A stretch of 33,974 nucleotides of DNA. Origin: Longilinea sp. (GTDB lineage Bacteria > Chloroflexota > Anaerolineae > Anaerolineales > Anaerolineaceae). Positions within the stretch are counted from its first letter, which is position 1; every line of letters starts with the position of its first letter. The notes under the pieces are model-generated. The model saw only the letters and a program-made list of their open reading frames with translations. It did not search any database and had not been told where the DNA came from. The stretch lies in assembly GCA_026645875.1 (NCBI GenBank), contig JAPKMQ010000008.1, forward strand, positions 1-33,974. Direction: 5' to 3'. The translations under genes were made by a program, and so were the position numbers. Shown here one piece after another: positions 14,518 through 33,974 of this stretch.

Positions 14518-17500
14518 TCAGGAGGAACGCGATTCGGGGATTTCAAAATAAAAGGTGCTGCCCTTGCCAAGCTGGCTTTCCACCCAAACGCGCCCTTTGT
14601 GCCGCTCGGCGATCGACTTTACGATGGCCAACCCAAGCCCGGTTCCGCGCTGTTGGTAGGCTTCGCGGCGGCCGCTGCGGTAGAATTTTTCGAACAGCCG
14701 CGGTAGATCCAGGGGCGCGATCCCGATGCCATTGTCGTTCACTTCAAACAAAATGCTATCCGCGCGGCGCATCAACCGGACTTTCACATGGCCGTTGGTG
14801 TGCGTGTATTTCACCGCGTTTTCAATCAGGTTGTAAAACGCCTGTTGCAGCAAGGCCGGGTCAGCATCGACGACAATCGGTTGCAGGTCAGTGGTATCCA
14901 ACGCCAGGGTGATGTTATTCTGAACCGCCTGCGGCTGCAGGGAAGTCATCACCTGGTCCACAATCTCGTTGAGAAGCACCCGTTCGGTCCGCAAGCCAAT
15001 GCCGGTTTCAATGCGACCCAAATCCAGCAAGTTGTTCACCAGGCGGGTCATATTCTCCACCCCGGTCATGATTTTGCGGGTATAGCCCTGCTGCTGGTCG
15101 TTCAATTCGCCGACCATCTGAAGCATGGCAGTGTAGCCTTTCATGAGCGTCAGAGGCGAGCGCAAATCGTGACTGACCGTGGAGACAAAGTCGGACTTGA
15201 TCGCGTCCAACTCCTTATACTGGGTGATGTCCTGTAGGATTAAGATTCGTCCCACTTTGCGCGCCTCAGCCACAACCGAGGATACGCTGGCGTGGTAAAC
15301 CTTGTTGTTCGGAAGTGTGATTTCGCTGGATTGGATGCGATCCGTCAACGGCGCTTTGGCCAGATTAAGCAGTTCCGTAACGGCCAGCACGTCCTCCATG
15401 TTCCTGCCTGTGGTGGCCGAGGCAATCAGGCCGACTGTTTGCAGCGCTGCAGGGTTAACCAGCAGTAGCCGGCCCTGCTCATCGAATACCAGGACGGGTT
15501 CGGGCGTGGAGGAAAGGACCGCCTCCAGCCGCTGGCGTCCCACTTCGGCGTTGGCGTACAGGTTGGCGTTGGCCGCAGCGAGCGCAGCCTGAGCAGTCAA
15601 CGTGGAAATAAACCGGATTTCCTCCTCGGAAAATTGCCGGGGGGTATCATAACCGACCCACAAGGCACCAAAGAACAGGCTCTCATGGTAAATCGGCATG
15701 GCCAATAATGCGGCCGGCGCAGGCTGGCCGGCTTTCAAATTCAGCCGGCGCATGCGCGCCATGTTGGGCATCACCAAAACGTCCATGCGCTGGACCTGTT
15801 CGATGATCAAGGCATCCAGGCCAGAGTACAGGTTGGCGGCCGGGCCAGCGCCAAAGGAGGCCGGTTGCCCTTCCACCTGCCCCAGGGAAACCGGTTGAAC
15901 GATCACAACCCGGGCTGTCGACACGCCATCTCCCAGAGCGGCATGGATGATCGGCGCTACGGCTTTTTCAATCTCCAGGTTGGCTGCCACGCCCTGGCTG
16001 ACCGTGAGCAGGCGGTTCAACTCGTGCAGACGCGCCTTCAAGCTCAGCCGCATGCGTTCAAACGCGCCGCTGAGCTGCCCCACCTCGTCAACCCCGGAAA
16101 CCATCAGAGGAGAATCCAACTGCCCCTGCGAGATCAGTGCGGCCTGCGATGCTACCGTGCGCAGCGTGGTTGTAATCCCGCGCAGGCTGAAGCGCAGAAG
16201 TACGAATACCACCACGATTAACCCCAACAGGATGAGCAACAAAGGCACCGCAATGCTTAATGCCAGGCTCTGAACCTGCGTCGATGGAAGGTTGACAACC
16301 GCCTTCCAGGAATGTCCCAGACTCGGTTGAACGAACACCATGCGCTGCGTGCCCATCTGCGAAATTTCTTCAAAAAAATCCGCTGTTTCCGGGATCTTAC
16401 CCGGATAGTCGCTCATCACCAGCGAAGAGGTATTCAGGGTGGTATAGAGAATTTTTCCAAATTCATCCAGGATCACGCCTTCGCCGCCCATCGCGCTGAT
16501 CTCTTGCAACGCTTGGATCGCGGGTTGGGTAAACGGGTTGCTCTGCATGTCCGTCCACCCCATGATAACCCCCAGACCAGATCCAGTCGCATCCTGGATG
16601 GCGGCAACAAACACAACTTGTGCAGATGTTTCGCCGGGAATCGCGTTCAGCGTGTAGGTCTGCACCAGGACGCCCTTCATGGCTAAATCGATCGCAGTTT
16701 TTTCCTGATCGCCCAACGAGAACTGGCGGTCACCCGGGGCCTGGGCAATCAGCATGCCGCTGGCATCAAACAGCCCCAGCCGGGTGAAAAATGGCACCGA
16801 GCGGAGCATCTGTTCCAACTCAGCCACCTGGTTCTCCGGCGGCATGGTCATCAGGTCTGGCTGCGCATGGCTTAACACCAGTCCCTGTCCGCTCTCAAGA
16901 AAATACGGAATGCTGCCAGAGGCTACCTGGGCGGTGGTGGACAACCGCTCCCGGATCATTTGCCTGGCAGCATTTCCGGCCACGATCCAATCGCCAAACA
17001 TGATCGCCAGCAAGAGCGCGGCAATCAATGGGAATGTCCATAGGAAAAAGCGCACCTGAAGGCTGGTCTCGGAAGGTGAGGGAACCAACGGCCCCGACCG
17101 GCCCCACAATTTGGGCTTCACGATGTAAATGATTTCAGCCACCACGCAGGCGGTCAGAAGCTCAAGAATCCGAACCATTACCACCGGCCACGAACCAGTC
17201 AGCGCATAATCCAACCGTACTGAGACCTCACCTCTTGCGGAGAAAAAGGTAGTGGTCAGGATGATTGGAATCAGGACCAGGCCAATGGCGACCGCCGCGC
17301 CCAGCGGATTGCGTAGGAAACGAAAGAAACCGGTCCGGTAGCGCTGCCGGACAGCTGCCGAAAAGAGCAGCGCCAGGATGCCAAACTCCAATGGCGTGAA
17401 CAGGCTATGCGTTTCCCAGCGGGCAAACAGGAAACCGCTGAACATGGCGATCGCCACCGACGCTAGCGGTCCAAATAGCCCGGCTGCCAGCACCCAGGGC

Positions 17501-17796
17501 ACCGCCTGGAAGAACATCAACGCTGGAGAGGAAAAATCGCGGGGCAGGTTGGGCAACGTAACCGCGCCGTCGCCCGGCAGACGGATGCCTATGAAAAGCG
17601 TGGTAATGGGTACGACCGCCACCAACAAAGCCAGCAACGGCCAGCGCCGCTTATACCGCTCCAGGCCGGGTTCCCACCAATGCCGGATCCCCAAGAGCAG
17701 AAGCGCAGCCAGCGTCACCCAACCGATCCAGGCGCCAGCCCCGGTTGGAAGATCAATGTACGCTGTATTTGCTAGAAGCGAGAGAATATTCTGCAT
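14518..17796 (-). CDS. Membrane sensor histidine kinase (multi-TM N-terminus, extracytoplasmic sensor, HAMP, GAF, PAS, HisKA, HATPase_c)
   Basis: H-box FVSTVSHDLRSPLTLMKGYTAML; N-box YNLIENAVKYT; G boxes VNDNGIGIAP and RGTGLGLAIVKSIAERHKGRVWVESQLGKGSTFYFEIP; HAMP-like SLRGITTTLRTVASQAALISQGQLDSPLMVSGVDEVGQLSGAFERM. Confidence 0.93.
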   Translation of the reverse strand: MQNILSLLANTAYIDLPTGAGAWIGWVTLAALLLLGIRHWWEPGLERYKRRWPLLALLVAVVPITTLFIGIRLPGDGAVTLPNLPRDFSSPALMFFQAVPWVLAAGLFGPLASVAIAMFSGFLFARWETHSLFTPLEFGILALLFSAAVRQRYRTGFFRFLRNPLGAAVAIGLVLIPIILTTTFFSARGEVSVRLDYALTGSWPVVMVRILELLTACVVAEIIYIVKPKLWGRSGPLVPSPSETSLQVRFFLWTFPLIAALLLAIMFGDWIVAGNAARQMIRERLSTTAQVASGSIPYFLESGQGLVLSHAQPDLMTMPPENQVAELEQMLRSVPFFTRLGLFDASGMLIAQAPGDRQFSLGDQEKTAIDLAMKGVLVQTYTLNAIPGETSAQVVFVAAIQDATGSGLGVIMGWTDMQSNPFTQPAIQALQEISAMGGEGVILDEFGKILYTTLNTSSLVMSDYPGKIPETADFFEEISQMGTQRMVFVQPSLGHSWKAVVNLPSTQVQSLALSIAVPLLLILLGLIVVVFVLLRFSLRGITTTLRTVASQAALISQGQLDSPLMVSGVDEVGQLSGAFERMRLSLKARLHELNRLLTVSQGVAANLEIEKAVAPIIHAALGDGVSTARVVIVQPVSLGQVEGQPASFGAGPAANLYSGLDALIIEQVQRMDVLVMPNMARMRRLNLKAGQPAPAALLAMPIYHESLFFGALWVGYDTPRQFSEEEIRFISTLTAQAALAAANANLYANAEVGRQRLEAVLSSTPEPVLVFDEQGRLLLVNPAALQTVGLIASATTGRNMEDVLAVTELLNLAKAPLTDRIQSSEITLPNNKVYHASVSSVVAEARKVGRILILQDITQYKELDAIKSDFVSTVSHDLRSPLTLMKGYTAMLQMVGELNDQQQGYTRKIMTGVENMTRLVNNLLDLGRIETGIGLRTERVLLNEIVDQVMTSLQPQAVQNNITLALDTTDLQPIVVDADPALLQQAFYNLIENAVKYTHTNGHVKVRLMRRADSILFEVNDNGIGIAPLDLPRLFEKFYRSGRREAYQQRGTGLGLAIVKSIAERHKGRVWVESQLGKGSTFYFEIPESRSS

Positions 17797-24932: not shown

Positions 24933-25277
24933 TTACTCTGCACTGTCTGAGAATGGGTCGTCTGTGCCCGACGCAATTTGGAGCACGTCCACAACCGCAT
25001 CCAGGTTTAAAGGACCGTACAGGTGAGGAAACAATTGGCCATCCGCGGCATCGTAACGCAATTCCGCCTTCAGGCGGGCTACATTAACCGCCAACATCAC
25101 CAAACCGGTGTGACCAGCAAAGAAGCGCGCCAGCGTGCCCGGTACATGTGCACGCGTTGAAAGGTGGATGAAACCTTCCAGGGCCAGCGAAGCTGGCCGG
25201 TATTCGTCCGCCCGCCGAACGTTTTCCCACTCAGCCGGGGTCAGGATATGGTAAATCACTGCGTTACTGGTCATCAT
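24933..25277 (-). CDS. DUF952 domain-containing small protein
   Basis: IYHILTPAEWENVRRADEYRPASLALEGFIHLSTRAHVPGTLARFF...FPHLYGPLNLDAVVDV pattern typical of DUF952; ATGA overlap with the upstream gene. Confidence 0.85.
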   Translation of the reverse strand: MMTSNAVIYHILTPAEWENVRRADEYRPASLALEGFIHLSTRAHVPGTLARFFAGHTGLVMLAVNVARLKAELRYDAADGQLFPHLYGPLNLDAVVDVLQIASGTDDPFSDSAE

Positions 25278-28200
25278 GGCAACACCTCATAGATCACTGT
25301 CATTCCGTCGCGGTAAACCTCCTGCCACAAATCGCCGTTCCACTCATCAAAGCGGAGCAGACCCGCCCCGGCAAATTTCGCCCGTTCCAACTGGCCAAGG
25401 ATGACGTAACGTGCATTGTATTTCAGCAGGAATTGCTCAGCCTGGTCCCGTGAATAGGTCGTGTAGAACTCCGTGACTTCATTGACGCGGTTCGACACCC
25501 ACTCGCCGGGCAGAATGGCGCGTTGCTGGCGCTGGTGCCAGTCCCATCCCACCACGCCGGGCAATCCTGTGTAAATGGTAAAACGGTTAAACCAGCGGTA
25601 TAGATCAAAACTGTTGGCCTCGACGATCACCGTAGAGCCCTTAACGTTACGCTGCATCCATTGAATTGCACGGTAATCTTCGCTCAAATCCAGGTCGACG
25701 CCGGATTCGCTAAACGTCGAAGTCTGCATATAGGCCATGCCGTCCAGCGTGTGCGGCGCAAACCCGCTCATGCGGTCGTTAATTTTATCGGCGCTGGCCA
25801 TCACCGGGTATAAGGCGGCGCCAAACACCAGCAGAACCAGGGAAATTTGCCAGGCGGTCCGTCTTCCATGCGGCCAGAAAGCCACCCCGGGCAGCAGCCA
25901 GAACAGCGCAGCCGCAGCGCTCACCGAAAGCATTGTCCAGGCCTGCAGGTAGAACTTGAATACCGTGTTCATGCGCTCCACGTCGCCGCGCAACACAATC
26001 ACCTCGACCGCCAGCGTCAGCATCAGCGCCGCCGCCACGAGTACCAGCACGAAGCGTTTCACGTCCGGCTGTTTAGGCCGGAAGACCAGCGTGCCAGCCC
26101 AAATCGCCAGCGGTAGCGTAAACCAGGCGATCTGAACTTTTAGGAACAACAGATAAACCACAACCACCAGGAAAACCGCGAGCCCCACCAGGATCGCTGA
26201 CAGGTAAGGGCGCAGTTTGTGCAAGGAGGAGAGCGGCGTACTGGCCAGCCAATCGCGCGTTTCGCGGATCATCCAGCCAATAATGATGAACAGGAACAGA
26301 CCCCAGTGCGTGATATAGGACCAGAAGGGCGAGCGGTCGCCCTTCCAGAGGTCGACAGCGTTATACCCCTGCCCGTACCACTCACCAAACGGTTGGTACA
26401 ACAGAATTGTCAGTCCGGCTAGCAGCACCGCCGCTCCGAAAGCCGGCAATTCATGCCGCTCAGCATAAGGGAGTGCCAGCCTGCCTTCAGACACTGCACC
26501 ATAACGGTATGCCGTATATACCACAGCCAGCAGCGCCAGGCCCAGGTAAGCAGGCAGGTCCCAGGTGTTGGTGGGCCGCAGCGCGCCGATGATCACCCCG
26601 CCCAGCAGGAAACTGAGCGCAAAAGTCACCCACCCCGGAATGCGTTCCACCCTGTGCCATTGCCAGCGTCCCATCAAGATCGACAGGCTCCACAACAGTG
26701 CCAGCAGTGTTATGGGCAGTGCAAACATGTGCGCATGCGGGTCTGCGTACAGGAAGGTGAAGAATGGGAACTCGGTGATCACCCAGCCCGGATAAACGCG
26801 GCTGGGGATCCAGTACCAATCTCCCGGGTAGAAGGAGAATTTATCACCGGCGAACGTTTTTCCAATGCCCTGCAACGCCCAGCTCACGCGCGCAAACAGG
26901 TTGGCGGCTTCATCCAGCGCGGCCGGGTTGCCTAGCTTTTGCAATCCATGCCAGATCATGCGTACGGTGCCCAGGTTACCCAACACCGCCATGCCCAGCG
27001 CCGCTGAGATTCCACCCAGCAGCGGCGTGGTAACCCGATTTAGCCAGGTCCTCACCGGAGACGGCTCTTCGCCGCCATTGCGCCAGGATAGTAAATTCCA
27101 CACCAGTGAAAAAGCTCCCAACGCGGTGAAGCTGAACAGGCTGGGCAGCACCAGGTTGTAGGCCACCGAGGGAATGATCCCCAGCCATTTGACCAGCATG
27201 CCCACCACGACAAAGCCGTAGTAGTAATAGTTGATGTATCCGCCCGCGTACCACGGATCATACGGTGGAAATGTGCTGGACTTCAAGATTGCGTTGAAAT
27301 AGGAAAAATCCATGGGCTTTTCGCCGCCCTTGGATGGATGCCACAGATCCGAATTGCCCAGACGGATGAGCAGGAAAAAAATAAAGAAAGCCAGCGCGAA
27401 AAGCTCGACGGTGAGGAAATATTTCCGGCGGGCCTGCCATTCTGCTTTCAGCGACTCGCGCTGCCAGTACGCCAACCCGGCGTTGGTGGCCGCTAGCAGC
27501 AGCAGCACAAGGCTGAGCAACAGCCGGGACACGGTGATTCCGACCGAGCCGGCCCACCAGGCCATCAGCGCAAACAGCAGCATGCCGGCAAGTTTGCTGG
27601 CCGGGAAACCGCGATCCGGCAGCCCGCCGAATGCCAGGCGTACCGTAGGGTATACCACCCATCCCAACAGCGAAACCGCCAGGTACCAGACTACCATTGA
27701 AACCCACGGCGAGCTGTTCACCAGCGAATCCGGGTTGAACAGTTCCACCCAGGTGCCGCCGCTTTGCTGCTGCGCCAGACGGTCAGCCGGCAACTCCAGC
27801 GTGCCCGGAGTCTTGCCGGCCTGCTGGGGAGTCAGGTGAATCACCCGGGTCAGATCGACGCTCCCCAGGATGGCTCGCACGACCGCCGGGTCGTAATCGC
27901 TGGACTTGCGGAAGATCAGCACCTTCGGATGGTCGTATACCGTGAACGCCTCTTCGGCAAACTGGGTGTTGATTTTGAAGGGGCCAATGTTGGGATCAGA
28001 TTGAAACACCTCAATCAATTCAAAACCCAGGTCACCGGCATACAGGCCGGGCTGTGCCACGCGATAACAATCCAGCAGGTCCTGGTCATCCGGGCAGCCC
28101 AGAAGACTGCGGTAATACTGGGTGGTCAATGGATAGCGCTCGGGAACCCGCGTGGTGGTACCCCACTGGCGGTTGGAAGTAATGTAAATGTAGTCGGCCT

Positions 28201-30568
28201 GATCCAGATTGGTCAGAAAACGCTCCAGCTTGTCCGCGTTGTCGTCCCAGTACATCTCAAAATTCAGGTCGCTGCGATAAATTCCGCTGTCGCTGCCGAA
28301 GGGATCATAGCCATCTTTGCGCAAGGGCAAAGCGTCATCCCACGTGGTTTCCATGGCAGGCTTGCTGCCGTAGATGCCCAATTCTCCGCTGCCGCTGACC
28401 AACGACAGGCGCAAGGCATAAGTCACGCCCTGCGTCAACTCGACTGGCGAGTCAAACTGAAAAGTGACTTCGCCGCCGCGCCGGTCGTCCACCGCCAGGA
28501 AGGTGCCCTGGACTTGTGCCGTTGCCAGCGGGGCTGCTTCGGTCCCGGGATCGCTGATTTCCACCATTAAGGTCTTGAGTTCGTCTGTACCAGACCAATC
28601 CAAGACATGCGGCATCGTCACCTGCACCAGCCGGCCCGTTTCCGCCGCCGTGACCAGGTTGGTGAAGGGTGTGGCAGCGTCAATCAGGAAGACCGGATCG
28701 GCCAACGCCTGTACCTGCGTGCCAGCCGCATTGACCAGGCGCAGGCTCATTGTTCCGTTCAGGCGAATGGCTTGGTTCGCATCCGGGGTGGATAACGTCA
28801 GGATATATTGCCCGCCAACTTCCAACGGGATCGATTGCGTAAAGGCGGCTTTGTAATCCGACTCATTGGTAAAATCACCCGTCAGAGAGGCTGTTGCAGC
28901 CAACCCGGAAGGATCATCGGCCTTCACAACGGTGATATTCAACGTCCGCGTCGCCGGTGCCGTGGAATCACCGGCAGAAACCATGTTGCTGACAGCCTTT
29001 AGCGCAATCTCGCCCAGCAGTCCATTCTGCTCGGCGGTGAATTTCAACACAACGGGAGTTTCACCGGTGACATTGATGCCCCATCGGTAAGCCACCGGCT
29101 GGTTCAAGAGACCCGCCGCTGTTTCCATCGATAGGTTGATCGGCCCCGGCACGTTGGCATAAATCCATTCGCTCGCTGCCACGCGCGTCACCGGGCGGGT
29201 GTAAATGCGCGAAAACGCAAACGCCCAAGCGAACGTGGCTGCCAGGACAGTGCCAGCCAGCACCCCGGCGATTATTCGGGTCGCCCGCCCGCGCCGTTCC
29301 TTGCCCTCCTGGTCCAGCAATGCGCCGCCGTGTTCCCATAACGTCGCCAATCCCCAGGCGGCGATCACCGCCAGCGACGGATAAATGGGCAACTGATAGC
29401 GCATGGTCGGGTTTCCCTGCAATGACTGCCAGAGGAAGTAGCCGCCCGTCCACCCCCACAACAACAGCAAGCGCTTCCGATCACCCTTTAGAATTTGCCA
29501 AAACATCGCAAGGAAACTGACCCAAGCAGTAATTCCAAGCGGAATGCCCAACCCCCACAGCACCATGTTTTGCAGCGAGAATGTATTTGACCGCCGCGCC
29601 CATTGCAGCGCCGGCGGATAATCGACATCGCCGCTGGTCTGGTCTGCCAGTTCCTTCAGGTTTTGCACCCACTTTTCGTTGGGGATCAATCCGAAGAAAC
29701 CCGGCCCTGTGAAAGCATACGGCTGGAAGATGCGGAACACAAGCAGGGCCATCAGCCCGCCCAGCACCAGGTCGCGCAGCCCCCACAGCTCCTGATCGCG
29801 ACGCTGTCCGGCCGGCAGGCCCAGGTAGCGCAGTAGCATCGCCGCGGGCAGCAGCAGTGCCATTGGCCCGGTGTTCACTTTGCAGGCCATCGCCAGCCCG
29901 ATGGCCAGCCCAAACCAGAGCGAATAACTGAGCGTATTGGGCTGGGCAACGCGCCGCCGGTTTTCAGGATCGACCGGCTGAACCGGCTCGGTCAGCAGGC
30001 AAATGGCAAAGTACACCGCCAGGGTGGCAAAAGCCACGGCGAATGAATCCGAAACGTAAAAATGCGCCTGCTGGATTTGCATCACCGCAGCCGCCGAGAA
30101 TGCCGCCCCCAAAACGCCAATTTTCCGGTTGAACAGCCGCCGCCCAATGAGATAAACGAGAAATACGGTCAGCAAATCCAGGGACGCTGAAAGAATGCGG
30201 CCGATCAGGTTGATGTCTTCCCAGGAAGGGTTTTCCATCACCGAATTCGCCAGATAGCGCGTCATGAAAACCGGCAGGGTGCCGTAGACGTAAAAACCGT
30301 GCCCGCGGTTGTGCGGATTCAGGCTGGAGATTTCGGTGTTGAAATATTCAGAGAGGCTGTTGACCGGCGAGATATCCGCCGTGACCCACACAAAAAAGCG
30401 TTCATCCGGATGAAGGAACTGCCCTTCACCCCAGTTGATGCCCGTGAAGCGAAAATAGGCGCCGATCAGCAGGACAAGGATGAGCAGCACATCCCACAGC
30501 CGGGATTCTTGCGAGCGCGCGGTGGGCTCTGGCTCAAACTGGGGTTGTTGCGGAGTGCTTTCCAACAT
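25274..30568 (-). CDS. Giant 1764-aa fusion: N-terminal GT39-type membrane glycosyltransferase + beta-rich extracytoplasmic region + C-terminal DUF2298/YYY membrane domain
   Basis: N-term FTGINWGEGQFLHPDERFFVW ... GNPTMRYQLPIYPSLAV; middle ~aa 500-735 Thr/Ser/Val-rich without TM helices; C-term GEKPMDFSYFNAILKSSTFPPYDPWYAGGYINYYYYGFVVVGMLVKWLG ... FPFFTFLYADPHAHMFALPITLLA ... RMNTVFKFYLQAW. Confidence 0.88.
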   Translation of the reverse strand: MLESTPQQPQFEPEPTARSQESRLWDVLLILVLLIGAYFRFTGINWGEGQFLHPDERFFVWVTADISPVNSLSEYFNTEISSLNPHNRGHGFYVYGTLPVFMTRYLANSVMENPSWEDINLIGRILSASLDLLTVFLVYLIGRRLFNRKIGVLGAAFSAAAVMQIQQAHFYVSDSFAVAFATLAVYFAICLLTEPVQPVDPENRRRVAQPNTLSYSLWFGLAIGLAMACKVNTGPMALLLPAAMLLRYLGLPAGQRRDQELWGLRDLVLGGLMALLVFRIFQPYAFTGPGFFGLIPNEKWVQNLKELADQTSGDVDYPPALQWARRSNTFSLQNMVLWGLGIPLGITAWVSFLAMFWQILKGDRKRLLLLWGWTGGYFLWQSLQGNPTMRYQLPIYPSLAVIAAWGLATLWEHGGALLDQEGKERRGRATRIIAGVLAGTVLAATFAWAFAFSRIYTRPVTRVAASEWIYANVPGPINLSMETAAGLLNQPVAYRWGINVTGETPVVLKFTAEQNGLLGEIALKAVSNMVSAGDSTAPATRTLNITVVKADDPSGLAATASLTGDFTNESDYKAAFTQSIPLEVGGQYILTLSTPDANQAIRLNGTMSLRLVNAAGTQVQALADPVFLIDAATPFTNLVTAAETGRLVQVTMPHVLDWSGTDELKTLMVEISDPGTEAAPLATAQVQGTFLAVDDRRGGEVTFQFDSPVELTQGVTYALRLSLVSGSGELGIYGSKPAMETTWDDALPLRKDGYDPFGSDSGIYRSDLNFEMYWDDNADKLERFLTNLDQADYIYITSNRQWGTTTRVPERYPLTTQYYRSLLGCPDDQDLLDCYRVAQPGLYAGDLGFELIEVFQSDPNIGPFKINTQFAEEAFTVYDHPKVLIFRKSSDYDPAVVRAILGSVDLTRVIHLTPQQAGKTPGTLELPADRLAQQQSGGTWVELFNPDSLVNSSPWVSMVVWYLAVSLLGWVVYPTVRLAFGGLPDRGFPASKLAGMLLFALMAWWAGSVGITVSRLLLSLVLLLLAATNAGLAYWQRESLKAEWQARRKYFLTVELFALAFFIFFLLIRLGNSDLWHPSKGGEKPMDFSYFNAILKSSTFPPYDPWYAGGYINYYYYGFVVVGMLVKWLGIIPSVAYNLVLPSLFSFTALGAFSLVWNLLSWRNGGEEPSPVRTWLNRVTTPLLGGISAALGMAVLGNLGTVRMIWHGLQKLGNPAALDEAANLFARVSWALQGIGKTFAGDKFSFYPGDWYWIPSRVYPGWVITEFPFFTFLYADPHAHMFALPITLLALLWSLSILMGRWQWHRVERIPGWVTFALSFLLGGVIIGALRPTNTWDLPAYLGLALLAVVYTAYRYGAVSEGRLALPYAERHELPAFGAAVLLAGLTILLYQPFGEWYGQGYNAVDLWKGDRSPFWSYITHWGLFLFIIIGWMIRETRDWLASTPLSSLHKLRPYLSAILVGLAVFLVVVVYLLFLKVQIAWFTLPLAIWAGTLVFRPKQPDVKRFVLVLVAAALMLTLAVEVIVLRGDVERMNTVFKFYLQAWTMLSVSAAAALFWLLPGVAFWPHGRRTAWQISLVLLVFGAALYPVMASADKINDRMSGFAPHTLDGMAYMQTSTFSESGVDLDLSEDYRAIQWMQRNVKGSTVIVEANSFDLYRWFNRFTIYTGLPGVVGWDWHQRQQRAILPGEWVSNRVNEVTEFYTTYSRDQAEQFLLKYNARYVILGQLERAKFAGAGLLRFDEWNGDLWQEVYRDGMTVIYEVLP

Positions 30569-30601: not shown

Positions 30602-32746
30602 TCAAGGGATGGAATAGATGAGAAAATCCTTGCCATCGCGGCCAGAGTCATACAGAAACTCGCGTGCCTGAGGGTAGAGCTGGCGAAGTTTTTCAAGCGC
30701 AGCCTGATCCTCAGGGTTGACAATAAACAGCTTGGGTGTGTCGATCTCTAATGTCGTCTCAAGTTGATCGGCCCAAAGGGCATAATCCTTCAGCGGATAA
30801 CCGGCGTTAATCCCCACCAGGCGGGTATCCACCCAGTAAGGGTATGGGATGACATATGCATGATCCGGGTCACCAGTTGATTCTGCAAAACCGCGAATCA
30901 CTCCGCCGATCTGCGAGGTGTTCCACGCGCCGGCCATGAATTGCTCGTCATACTTGTGGAAAACCAGGTCGTAATTCAGGTTGGCTGAATTGCCAAGCAG
31001 CGCGGCGGCCAGCCCCACGATTGCAATGCGGCCGCCCGGCGAGGTCACGCGCGCCCAAAGCGAAGCCAGCAGGCTTTCCAGCCCGATTGCCGCGATGATG
31101 AAGATCGGTATGTACGCCGCGCCGCTGCGGTTAAGCGAAGGATTTTCCTCCGGGAACGCCAGCGAGAGAATGGACGGCAACATCAGCAGCGGAATGGAAA
31201 CCAGCAGAAACAGGTCCACCCAGTCGCGTTTTCGGATGTAGCGCACAATCACCAACACCAGACCGATAAAATACAAGGCCGCAGTGATGACATCCAACGC
31301 AGGCCGGCCTGTGACGGAATGCACCCAGATATTGTTGTTATCCCAGAATGGCATGATCAGCGACTTGCCCAGGTTTTCCAGGAAGATCAAACCAACCGGG
31401 CCTGGATATGCCCGTTCCGTTGTCGCCAGGCGGCTAAAGGCGCGGAATCCGAAGATATCGGGGTTTTGCGACCAGTAACGCAACAAAGGAAGAAAAACAA
31501 CCACCGAAACCAGCACCAGAACCACCAACGCCCACAGCACTCCAATGCGCTTACCCTGTGATTGGCGGTGCAACAGGTAAATACCGACGGCCACCAACAC
31601 CACCAACGGCAGCAGGCGGCTGGGACTGTAGCCGTGAAGTGCCAACCCCAGCGCGATGCCAGCTTTTAGGAAATCGTTGCGATCCGACCGCCGCAGGCCG
31701 CGAATGAGATAAAAAAGCATCGGCGCGGCAAACAGTGGGTAGAGCGGGAAACGCAGCCCCACGCGTGAGATGACGTTGGGCCAATAAGCCACCCCCGCGA
31801 GAAAAAGCGCGAACAACCCCACCCAGCGCGAACCGATTTCCTTTCCCAGCCGGTAGATATACGGCAATGTGAATAAACCTGCCAGCGCCGTGCCCAGTTT
31901 CAGGCTCATGAAGGTCAGCCCGGTACCAAACAGGTTCGCGACAGCCGCGGTCAGGTAAAACTGAAAATCCTCGCGCCCGGTATTGCGGTCGAAAAAAACT
32001 TTGTACTGACCATTCATCAGGTCCGAAACGTCCAGCAGCTTTTCGGCGTGGTCGCTGAACATTTCGCCGGGCACTTGATCGAGCCGGTAGAAGCGGAAGA
32101 AGACCATGAGGATCAAAACCGCCAGGACCAGAACATGCCAGGGTTTGATGGACAGCTTCCATTCAGGATGGCGAATCCAGGCCCAGAAGCGCTGCCAGAG
32201 AGATGGACTGGTTTCACCCGGCTGCCACACAGCAACGGTTATCGCCACAAAGGTTAGTATCCACCCTAAAAGGTTAATGAAATTGTAAGTTCCGCCAGTG
32301 AAAAGAAGAAAGGTGACCAGAACGAGCACCAGGCCAATGTAAAGCGGCACGCGAAGAATATCAAAGGAATACACTTTTTCAGTTGCCTGAGGGAGTTCGG
32401 GCAATTTCCAGGTGCGTTTCCATAAGAAAAACAACAACAGGGCAAGCGCAACCACGTAAAGGACCAGCGCGGCTTTCCAGTTTCGCCGCACCGGCTCAAT
32501 CATCACCTGGGCGATCATCGCAAACCCAATCACCCCCAACAGGCTGAGCGCGCCAATCCGGTCCATCCATCGAGCTGCCGGCAGCACCCGTGTCCCGGTT
32601 TCAACCTTGTCTTCAATATGCACTGATGGAATAGGTGCAGTCTCATCCTCGGGCAGCGGGGGGATTTCAGGTGCGGGGCCTTTCCAGGGGGTCAATCTGG
32701 CCTTGAGATAATCGAGAACGCTGGGTTCGGTCTTTTCTGGGTCCAT
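30602..32746 (-). CDS. GT39-type membrane glycosyltransferase with additional N-terminal TM segment
   Basis: FFRFYRLDQVPGEMFSDHAEKLLDVSDLMNGQYKVFFDRNTGREDFQFYLTAAVANLFGTG...GKEIGSRWVGLFALFLAGVAYWPNVISRVGLRFPLYPLF. ATG at 32746 preferred over the TTG at 32749. Confidence 0.78.
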   Translation of the reverse strand: MDPEKTEPSVLDYLKARLTPWKGPAPEIPPLPEDETAPIPSVHIEDKVETGTRVLPAARWMDRIGALSLLGVIGFAMIAQVMIEPVRRNWKAALVLYVVALALLLFFLWKRTWKLPELPQATEKVYSFDILRVPLYIGLVLVLVTFLLFTGGTYNFINLLGWILTFVAITVAVWQPGETSPSLWQRFWAWIRHPEWKLSIKPWHVLVLAVLILMVFFRFYRLDQVPGEMFSDHAEKLLDVSDLMNGQYKVFFDRNTGREDFQFYLTAAVANLFGTGLTFMSLKLGTALAGLFTLPYIYRLGKEIGSRWVGLFALFLAGVAYWPNVISRVGLRFPLYPLFAAPMLFYLIRGLRRSDRNDFLKAGIALGLALHGYSPSRLLPLVVLVAVGIYLLHRQSQGKRIGVLWALVVLVLVSVVVFLPLLRYWSQNPDIFGFRAFSRLATTERAYPGPVGLIFLENLGKSLIMPFWDNNNIWVHSVTGRPALDVITAALYFIGLVLVIVRYIRKRDWVDLFLLVSIPLLMLPSILSLAFPEENPSLNRSGAAYIPIFIIAAIGLESLLASLWARVTSPGGRIAIVGLAAALLGNSANLNYDLVFHKYDEQFMAGAWNTSQIGGVIRGFAESTGDPDHAYVIPYPYWVDTRLVGINAGYPLKDYALWADQLETTLEIDTPKLFIVNPEDQAALEKLRQLYPQAREFLYDSGRDGKDFLIYSIP

Positions 32747-33552
32747 CAAGCATCCACCTTGCGGGCAATATAAAAAGTATACGACCCTTTGGGCTGGTTG
32801 TCAGCTTCATCGTAGGCTGGTTGGCAGATAGCCTTGGCCAGCATCAGGTTCCACGGCTGGCGCGCCAGGATCCATCGCCGCGTGAATACGTGGATGATTA
32901 ACGAGGGCAAGCCAAAGTAGTGCCCCCACTCCAGCACGTGCAACGATTTTGGCGAAAAGTAGTGCCACCAGCGCTCAATATGAAAGCCCGCCCGCGCCAG
33001 CCGTTCTTCCCACACCTGGGGGCTGTCGCAATGATGGTGCCGGCTGATGCGGTTGAAAAAAGCGCGGTAGGCATTTCCCAGGAATTTCAGGCCGACACGG
33101 TCAAAGAAGGTGGAAACCGACAGGTTGCCCAAAAAGTTGTGGTTTGGCACGCAAAAGACAAACAAACCACCCGGCTGCAACACGCGCGCAACTTCCCGAA
33201 TCACGGGGTCAAGGTCTGGGATGTGTTCCAGCACCGAATTGCTCATCACGCTGGCGAAACTGCCGTCCGGCACGGGAATCTCATCCCCGGCCCCCTGCAC
33301 CACCGCGCGGTAACCGCCGCGGCCAATAGCCTGATGCACCGGCCCGGTCCACGGATCAATGCCAAATTCAATCGGGGCATCAAAAGTGACGGTCACAAAA
33401 TGGCCATCGCCGCAGCCCAGGTCGAGCACCGGCCGCGGTAGTTCGATATCCTGATAAAAGCGCGATTCGACTGCACGCAGCACGCCGCGGAAGTAAGGCA
33501 AATCGCGCAGTTGTAACCACAGGAAGTCTTTCTTTTGGGTGGATGATGGCAA
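32746..33552 (-). CDS. Class I SAM-dependent methyltransferase
   Basis: PVLDLGCGDGHFV (motif I), IPVPDGSFASVMSNSVLEHIPDLDPVIREVARVLQPGGLFVFCVPN. TTG start at 33552 with GGAGG SD; the N-terminal ~99 aa of the 367-aa track ORF are out-of-frame translation of the upstream gene. Confidence 0.87.
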   Translation of the reverse strand: MPSSTQKKDFLWLQLRDLPYFRGVLRAVESRFYQDIELPRPVLDLGCGDGHFVTVTFDAPIEFGIDPWTGPVHQAIGRGGYRAVVQGAGDEIPVPDGSFASVMSNSVLEHIPDLDPVIREVARVLQPGGLFVFCVPNHNFLGNLSVSTFFDRVGLKFLGNAYRAFFNRISRHHHCDSPQVWEERLARAGFHIERWWHYFSPKSLHVLEWGHYFGLPSLIIHVFTRRWILARQPWNLMLAKAICQPAYDEADNQPKGSYTFYIARKVDA

Positions 33553-33574
33553 GGAACGACCTCCGGGGTGCGGG

Positions 33575-33974
33575 TTAGTGTTGCAGTTCGCGCTGCATTT
33601 CATCAAATAGTTTTTCGTACTCCGTCGCGATGGTGCCCGGATCGTAGCGGCGGGCAATTTCAGCGGCGTCCGCTTGATACTTTTCACGATGATCCAGCAC
33701 TTCCAAAACCGCCTCCGCCAGACCCCGGCTATCGCCAATCGGCGCGATTTGTCCCATGCCGTGAATTTTGACCGGCTGGCGCACGCCCGGCAGGTTCGAG
33801 GCCACGCTGGGCACGCCGTTAAGCATGGCTTCGATCTGCACCAGGCCAAACGCTTCGGTTGAATTCAGGGAGGGCAGCACCAGCACGTCCAGATTGGGGT
33901 AATAAGCTGCCATTTGCTCCGGCGAGAGTGAACCGACAAAGCGCCAGTTGCCCGAAGCGACGTACTTCTCGATG
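33575..33974 (-). CDS. GT4-type glycosyltransferase, C-terminal part (5' end outside the window)
   Basis: FVGSLSPEQMAAYYPNLDVLVLPSLNSTEAFGLVQIEAMLNGVPSVASNLPGVRQPV: E-X7-E motif of GT4 (EAFGLVQIE). Reading frame is open to the window edge. Confidence 0.87.
   Translation of the reverse strand, partial: IEKYVASGNWRFVGSLSPEQMAAYYPNLDVLVLPSLNSTEAFGLVQIEAMLNGVPSVASNLPGVRQPVKIHGMGQIAPIGDSRGLAEAVLEVLDHREKYQADAAEIARRYDPGTIATEYEKLFDEMQRELQH

Follow-up and report, generated by a model that had tools for sequence, protein, structure and literature searches.

Why would a bacterium carry in one polypeptide both a GT39-type glycosyltransferase domain and a YYY (DUF2298) membrane domain? The question is raised by a 33,974-nucleotide stretch of DNA from Longilinea sp. 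(contig JAPKMQ010000008.1 of assembly GCA_026645875.1; the window), in which one continuous ATG-started frame on the minus strand (25274-30568) encodes such a chain of 1764 amino acids (aa). The DUF2298/YYY proteins are widespread in Chloroflexota and are also found in some archaea and clostridia, with a function so far unassigned. The fusion is real, and one chain contains a GT-C domain like those of PMT, ArnT and STT3, a soluble module and a YYY domain with a predicted GT-C fold, with invariant acid motifs and basic residues in both halves. The explanation preferred here, with moderate confidence, is that of a GT-C enzyme with two heads in the cytoplasmic membrane, acting on the outside in surface-glycan synthesis. 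An original prediction, made from the letters of the window, had described the chain as a GT39-type part joined to YYY; the single open frame agrees with this description, and all the motifs quoted in it were located (HPDER at residues 53-57, INYYYYGF at 1112-1119, DPHAHMFALP at 1276-1285 and RMNTVFKFYLQAW at 1532-1544).

The source assembly is a draft of 3.07 Mb in 387 contigs, 91% complete and most likely metagenome-assembled, and its relatives belong to the Anaerolineae of the phylum Chloroflexota. In a survey of 60 relatives plus the source genome, 61 in all, the fusion protein was matched in 60. Dozens of genomes carry it as a single frame of 1740-1890 aa that aligns nearly end to end with the window fusion at 40-74% identity, and 68 complete fusions were counted among named Anaerolineae-type genomes, the named strains including Longilinea arvoryzae, Bellilinea caldifistulae, Leptolinea tardivitalis, Ornatilinea apprima and Anaerolinea thermolimosa. 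Other Chloroflexota families keep the domain order GT39-soluble-YYY in 19 of 20 regions, mostly in 1413-1814 aa; in the twentieth (L120) the two parts are adjoining separate genes. The phylum-wide occurrence rules out that the fusion is peculiar to the source genome. Among the 19, Chloroflexus-like genomes encode GT39-YYY-YYY chains of 2333-2691 aa, which have the N-terminal domain order and the fused YYY clade in common with the window fusion and differ from it in the second YYY that follows and in the TPR-like repeats at the C-terminal end of the one protein that was translated fully. In the GT39-YYY-YYY loci (L103-L105, L118 and L121), where the chain reaches about 2500-2700 aa, this second YYY forms a clade of its own. 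The fusion of one Anaerolineaceae metagenome-assembled genome (L094:5995-11548) is split into frames of 1607 and 291 aa, probably by a sequencing frameshift. An apparent second fusion of 1420 aa at L122 4821-9083 was rejected, since it looks like a GC-rich run-on frame over the fusion gene with no real N-terminal extension.

The N-terminal half has the predicted fold and the motifs of a GT-C glycosyltransferase. In its AlphaFold2 (AF2) model the first helix spans residues 20-41, an outer loop follows with HPDE at 53-56, and the membrane domain extends up to residue 457, ahead of the extracytoplasmic part. The Foldseek matches in the PDB are AglB, Pmt4, ArnT, EmbC/EmbA-EmbB and oligosaccharyltransferase, all of them GT-C enzymes and all at probability 1.00. 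The window half stays just below the Pfam cut-offs for PMT_2 (21.9-25.5 bits, cut-off 26.1) and PMT (21.2 bits, cut-off 22.7); among 27 orthologous N-halves (E<=0.01), PMT_2 is found in all and PMT in 21, with a best PMT E-value of 6e-14. The GT39 features and HPDER motif that had been assigned to the first ~470 aa are right in type and motif, while the profile score is borderline for the window protein taken alone. HPDE is invariant in the 27 phylum-wide N-halves and in 69 Anaerolineae-type sequences, D55 and E56 being present in all members, and the positions invariant throughout the phylum include R40, W46, H53-E56, R124, D131, Q166, H169, R390 and Y391. A first transmembrane helix followed directly by a DE acid motif, the Rx6D motif (R124-D131), an arginine late in the outer loops (R390) and the GT-C fold are all features of PMT and PMT_2 proteins (GT39, and ArnT of GT83), from which the fusion differs in its sub-threshold profile scores, its soluble part and its fused partner. 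The Agl23-type profile TIGR03663 gave no match to the window N-half and weak matches in 10 of the 27 relatives, and membership of that family was rejected as below cut-off.

The original prediction took the C-terminal ~800 aa for a full DUF2298-like membrane domain, and the profiles confirm it. TIGR03662 is matched at residues 954-1762 over model positions 1-726 of 727 (477.9 bits, cut-off 300) and PF10060 over its entire model at residues 998-1547 (384.5 bits, cut-off 27.8), which makes this half a full member of the family, distinguished by the GT39-type enzyme and the extracytoplasmic module that are fused ahead of it. The AF2 model places three helices ahead of a GT-C-like core, and DPY19 (a C-mannosyltransferase, E 1.4e-5) and AftA (an arabinosyltransferase, E 8e-5), both at probability 1.00, are the sole Foldseek matches in the PDB at E<0.001. 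The AglB globular domain comes next, Pmt1-Pmt2 reach a probability of 0.82, and transporters and pumps stay below 0.3. A GT-C fold of the YYY/DUF2298 domain is thus highly probable on these models. YYY differs from DPY19 and AftA in having no detectable sequence relation to them, three extra N-terminal helices and the motifs YYY, DxHAH and RMNxVFK. A PDB sequence search with either half gave nothing useful, a viral fold search gave no match, and the YfhO profile was matched by one of 40 YYY domains (E 0.0014).

Those 40 domains, drawn from the whole phylum and a clostridial outgroup, served as the conservation set for YYY, and the invariant positions in them include E1083, M1086, D1104, W1106, R1257, E1266, H1278, H1280, N1334, D1337, R1532, N1534, K1538, H1678 and R1694. 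E1083 is located 12 residues past the fourth helix in a net-negative loop, which is equated with the first outer loop (EL1) of GT-C enzymes by helix order and not by superposition; the loop charges agree with an outward-facing acid motif. GT-C enzymes are characterised by an acidic motif soon after the first core helix, by conserved arginine or lysine in the remaining outer loops and by donors that are lipid-linked (PMC6801728, PMC11127046), and the first two of these fit the fusion halves. In DPY19 the catalytic Glu71, the proposed base, is in the first outer loop (PMC10154233), and the invariant Glu of YYY may act likewise, with R1532 and K1538 as possible phosphate binders. Structure prediction and fold search of both halves, which had been proposed as a check on the fusion, gave GT-C matches for each half at the pLDDT values of Table 1 (90.5 and 93), and neither half is degenerate, the invariant motifs being present and the models confident.

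The architecture has three parts, because an extracytoplasmic module (residues ~477-935) separates the membrane domains. This middle part of ~470 aa, including a tandem beta-sandwich insert, had been overlooked in the original prediction. The insert is 241-280 aa long in most order relatives and 133-146 aa in a second group; L122 has its own material at this position, and nearly all other members of the phylum lack it, residue ~473 running straight into ~740. The insert thus appears, from these alignments, to be specific to the Anaerolineae lineage. Besides the GT-C matches of the N-half, Foldseek finds a weak resemblance of the insert to tandem CBM22 beta-sandwiches, and it would hold the acceptor glycan, like the carbohydrate-binding modules of EmbC and AftD. 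The alpha/beta part that follows is kept throughout the phylum, with W743, D744, R800, E873 and D879 among its conserved residues.

If the protein is a two-headed enzyme, both heads would face outward, and it is fairly probable that both are catalytic. Each would take a sugar from a polyprenyl-phosphate or similar lipid donor and transfer it to a surface glycan or glycoprotein under construction; the fusion would keep two transfers that are consecutive or share a donor next to each other. Two GT-C units working as a pair are known from the heterodimers Pmt1-Pmt2 and EmbA-EmbB, but those are separate and closely related chains, whereas the window joins distant GT-C types in one polypeptide.

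The history of the fusion bears on whether the two units belong together. In the YYY tree the fused domains form one clade with a Shimodaira-Hasegawa-like approximate likelihood ratio test (SH-aLRT) value of 99, and the standalone YYY proteins fall in separate groups. The trees are quick searches with SH-aLRT support only, in which the deep standalone branches are unresolved; the clade covers all fusion rows in the tree (FUS and FUS2), the long-branch first copy of L114 having been left out. Because the YYY halves of the fusions form this one clade, the fusion is ancient. Family f36 shows the parts in several states. G173, a sister genome of the split ones, has a fused protein of 1443 aa with a standalone YYY adjoining, and six genomes (G108, G117, G126, G165, G189 and G205) have an N-half gene of 619-621 aa followed 260-350 bases on by a YYY gene of 793-819 aa. 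In G181 the N-half gene encodes 602 aa and the YYY 857 aa, and in G080 the two are on different contigs. The YYY beside the separate f36 N-halves groups with the standalone copy of G173, outside the fused clade; therefore these genomes either lost the fused YYY or never acquired it, and their N-half adjoins the other YYY. It follows that in the loci examined (G197 lies outside the set) the orthologous N-half has a YYY in its own chain or next to it, bar the contig break of G080.

Several observations weigh against a two-headed enzyme. Most of f36 has no fused YYY and a neighbour from the standalone group, which implies either exchangeable partners or two partly independent units. Of 61 Anaerolineae-type loci, all found via the fusion, 16 have no standalone YYY beside it. 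Paralogues of the N-half of ~790 aa, soluble part included, have no nearby YYY in at least seven genomes whose flanks are long enough (loci L125-L134 of Anaerolineae, some of which end at contig ends), and G115 has a YYY and an Agl23-type neighbour with no N-half. The paralogues and G115 show that GT39-YYY pairing is not obligatory. An hhalign comparison of YYY with N-half profiles gave no significant similarity (probability 8%), and the Foldseek TM-scores of YYY are 0.31-0.54 with a root-mean-square deviation of 15-18 Å over the full alignment; because these scores are moderate, the GT-C fold of YYY is strongly indicated rather than proven. The original suggestion that GT39 and YYY act as a pair is supported in part, having gained from the single ancient fusion clade and the six f36 genomes with adjoining genes; a functional pair is, judging from gene arrangement, reasonably likely.

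The alternative that survives best, although improbable, is that YYY is a GT-C-fold relative that has ceased to transfer sugars and serves the GT39 head, for example by binding or presenting a lipid-linked donor or acceptor or by moving it through the membrane. TIGR03663, which usually accompanies YYY in genomes, carries the name 'flippase activity-associated protein Agl23', three helices precede the YYY core, and none of the papers found reports that a YYY protein is catalytic. However, the invariant Glu at the GT-C acid-motif position and the outer-loop Arg, Lys and His, kept across the phylum and in the clostridium, are the pattern of an enzyme, and a clostridial polysaccharide locus has YYY on its own. 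Gene-order compaction, in which two independent surface-glycan enzymes are co-translated in one chain with no need of contact, is unlikely to about the same degree or slightly more so. It agrees with the dense cluster and its overlapping genes, with the occurrence of GT39-like and YYY proteins alone and with the adjoining position of the genes where they are split; yet the fusion is kept across the phylum while adjoining pairs of the same cluster stay separate, and Chloroflexus-like genomes have a second YYY within the chain. A frameshift, read-through or assembly join of two genes, which the fragmented source and the broken frame in L094 might suggest, is refuted by the same-length open frames in dozens of genera, named strains included, and by an architecture found across the phylum.

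For YYY, the fold evidence and the invariant acid motif turn an 'unknown membrane protein' into a 'candidate glycosyltransferase' with named residues, and the fusion offers a testable case for YYY proteins as sugar transferases in cell-surface construction. A chain of two or three distant GT-C units would be an unusual coupling of surface-glycan steps in Chloroflexota, a phylum with a little-understood cell envelope. A tentative extension is that DUF2298/YYY is an unrecognised GT-C glycosyltransferase family and that the surface glycan of Chloroflexota may be built by a single-chain enzyme with two or three heads for consecutive transfers, which would be a previously undescribed type of glycan-assembly enzyme. 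The NCBIfam text of TIGR03662 already covers a class whose members have an additional N-terminal region, a duplicated YYY and TPR repeats, and it ties YYY to TIGR03663. Neither the fold-based assignment of YYY nor the phylum-wide single-chain pair was found in the papers searched. Literature on DUF2298 is almost absent; a table for Chloroflexi bacterium 44-23 lists a DUF2298 protein near PMT2 proteins (PMC8756737).

Table 1. Features of the fusion gene and its neighbours in the window (AF2, AlphaFold2; pLDDT and pTM, its model confidence scores).
Feature	Position	Strand	Details
Fusion gene	25274..30568	-	1764 aa; two membrane domains, GT-C (PMT_2/GT39-like) and YYY/DUF2298, with an extracytoplasmic module between them
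N-terminal GT-C membrane domain, residues 20-457	29198..30511	-	AF2 pLDDT 90.5; Foldseek AglB, Pmt4, ArnT; PMT_2 in 27/27 orthologues
HPDE acid motif, residues 53-56, in the first outer loop immediately behind the first transmembrane helix	30401..30412	-	Invariant
Tandem beta-sandwich insert, residues 477-739	28352..29140	-	AF2 strands; weak CBM22-tandem match
Conserved extracytoplasmic alpha/beta part, residues 740-935	27764..28351	-	Conserved residues phylum-wide
YYY/DUF2298 domain, residues 940-1764	25277..27751	-	TIGR03662 478 bits; AF2 pLDDT 93, pTM 0.94; Foldseek DPY19, AftA
EKPMD motif, residues 1083-1087, proposed first outer loop of GT-C core	27308..27322	-	Invariant Glu; E1083, M1086 invariant in 40 YYY domains
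NYYYYG signature, residues 1113-1118	27215..27232	-	Conserved
DPHAH motif, residues 1276-1280	26729..26743	-	Both His invariant
RMNTVFK motif, residues 1532-1538	25955..25975	-	R1532, N1534, F1537, K1538 invariant
GT4-type (Glycos_transf_1) glycosyltransferase, C-terminal part	33575..33973	-	PF00534 63 bits; cut by contig end
Methyltransferase	32746..33849	-	PF08241 from residue 142; true start probably further in than the start of the open reading frame
GT39/PMT_2 protein P0003, 715 aa	30602..32749	-	PMT_2 38.1 bits
DUF952 gene	24933..25277	-	PF06108 101 bits; 4-base overlap with fusion gene end
Standalone YYY, 849 aa	22366..24915	-	479 bits; separate ancient paralogue group
GT-C-like protein P0004, 567 aa	20661..22364	-	Weakly Agl23-like; TIGR03663 sub-threshold, 43.7 vs 126

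The genes around the fusion point, by association, to surface-glycan synthesis. On the minus strand the order is GT4-type glycosyltransferase, methyltransferase, GT39 (P0003), fusion, DUF952, standalone YYY, GT-C-like protein (P0004), PlsC-like acyltransferase and cytidylate kinase (Cmk). The GT39 gene is upstream of the fusion in 59 of 64 loci, and downstream a P0004-type gene and Cmk are present in 59 and 56 of 61 loci, respectively. The standalone YYY that had been recognised in this cluster was borne out by its profile score; of the two standalone GT39 proteins, P0003 is clear and P0004 is weak, with no Pfam match and a TIGR03663 score far below the cut-off. Plasmid records hold one clostridial YYY and one haloarchaeal fragment and nothing more, the clostridial YYY gene standing alone in a locus that also encodes glycosyltransferases, a sugar epimerase and a protein of the O-antigen ligase type. 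Separate DUF2298 and Agl23-type genes were detected in Haloferax volcanii. At the place of the DUF952 gene, 17 of 45 related loci have a gap of 340-420 bases and others have none.

Two further genes of the minus strand lie beyond this order. A peptidase family C69 gene (17911-19227) is located at the end of the glycosyltransferase cluster and has a homologue in 28 related loci. A histidine kinase of 1092 aa (14518-17796), with a membrane N-terminus and HAMP, GAF and PAS domains, adjoins rpoC, and a similar kinase is found in 51 related loci.

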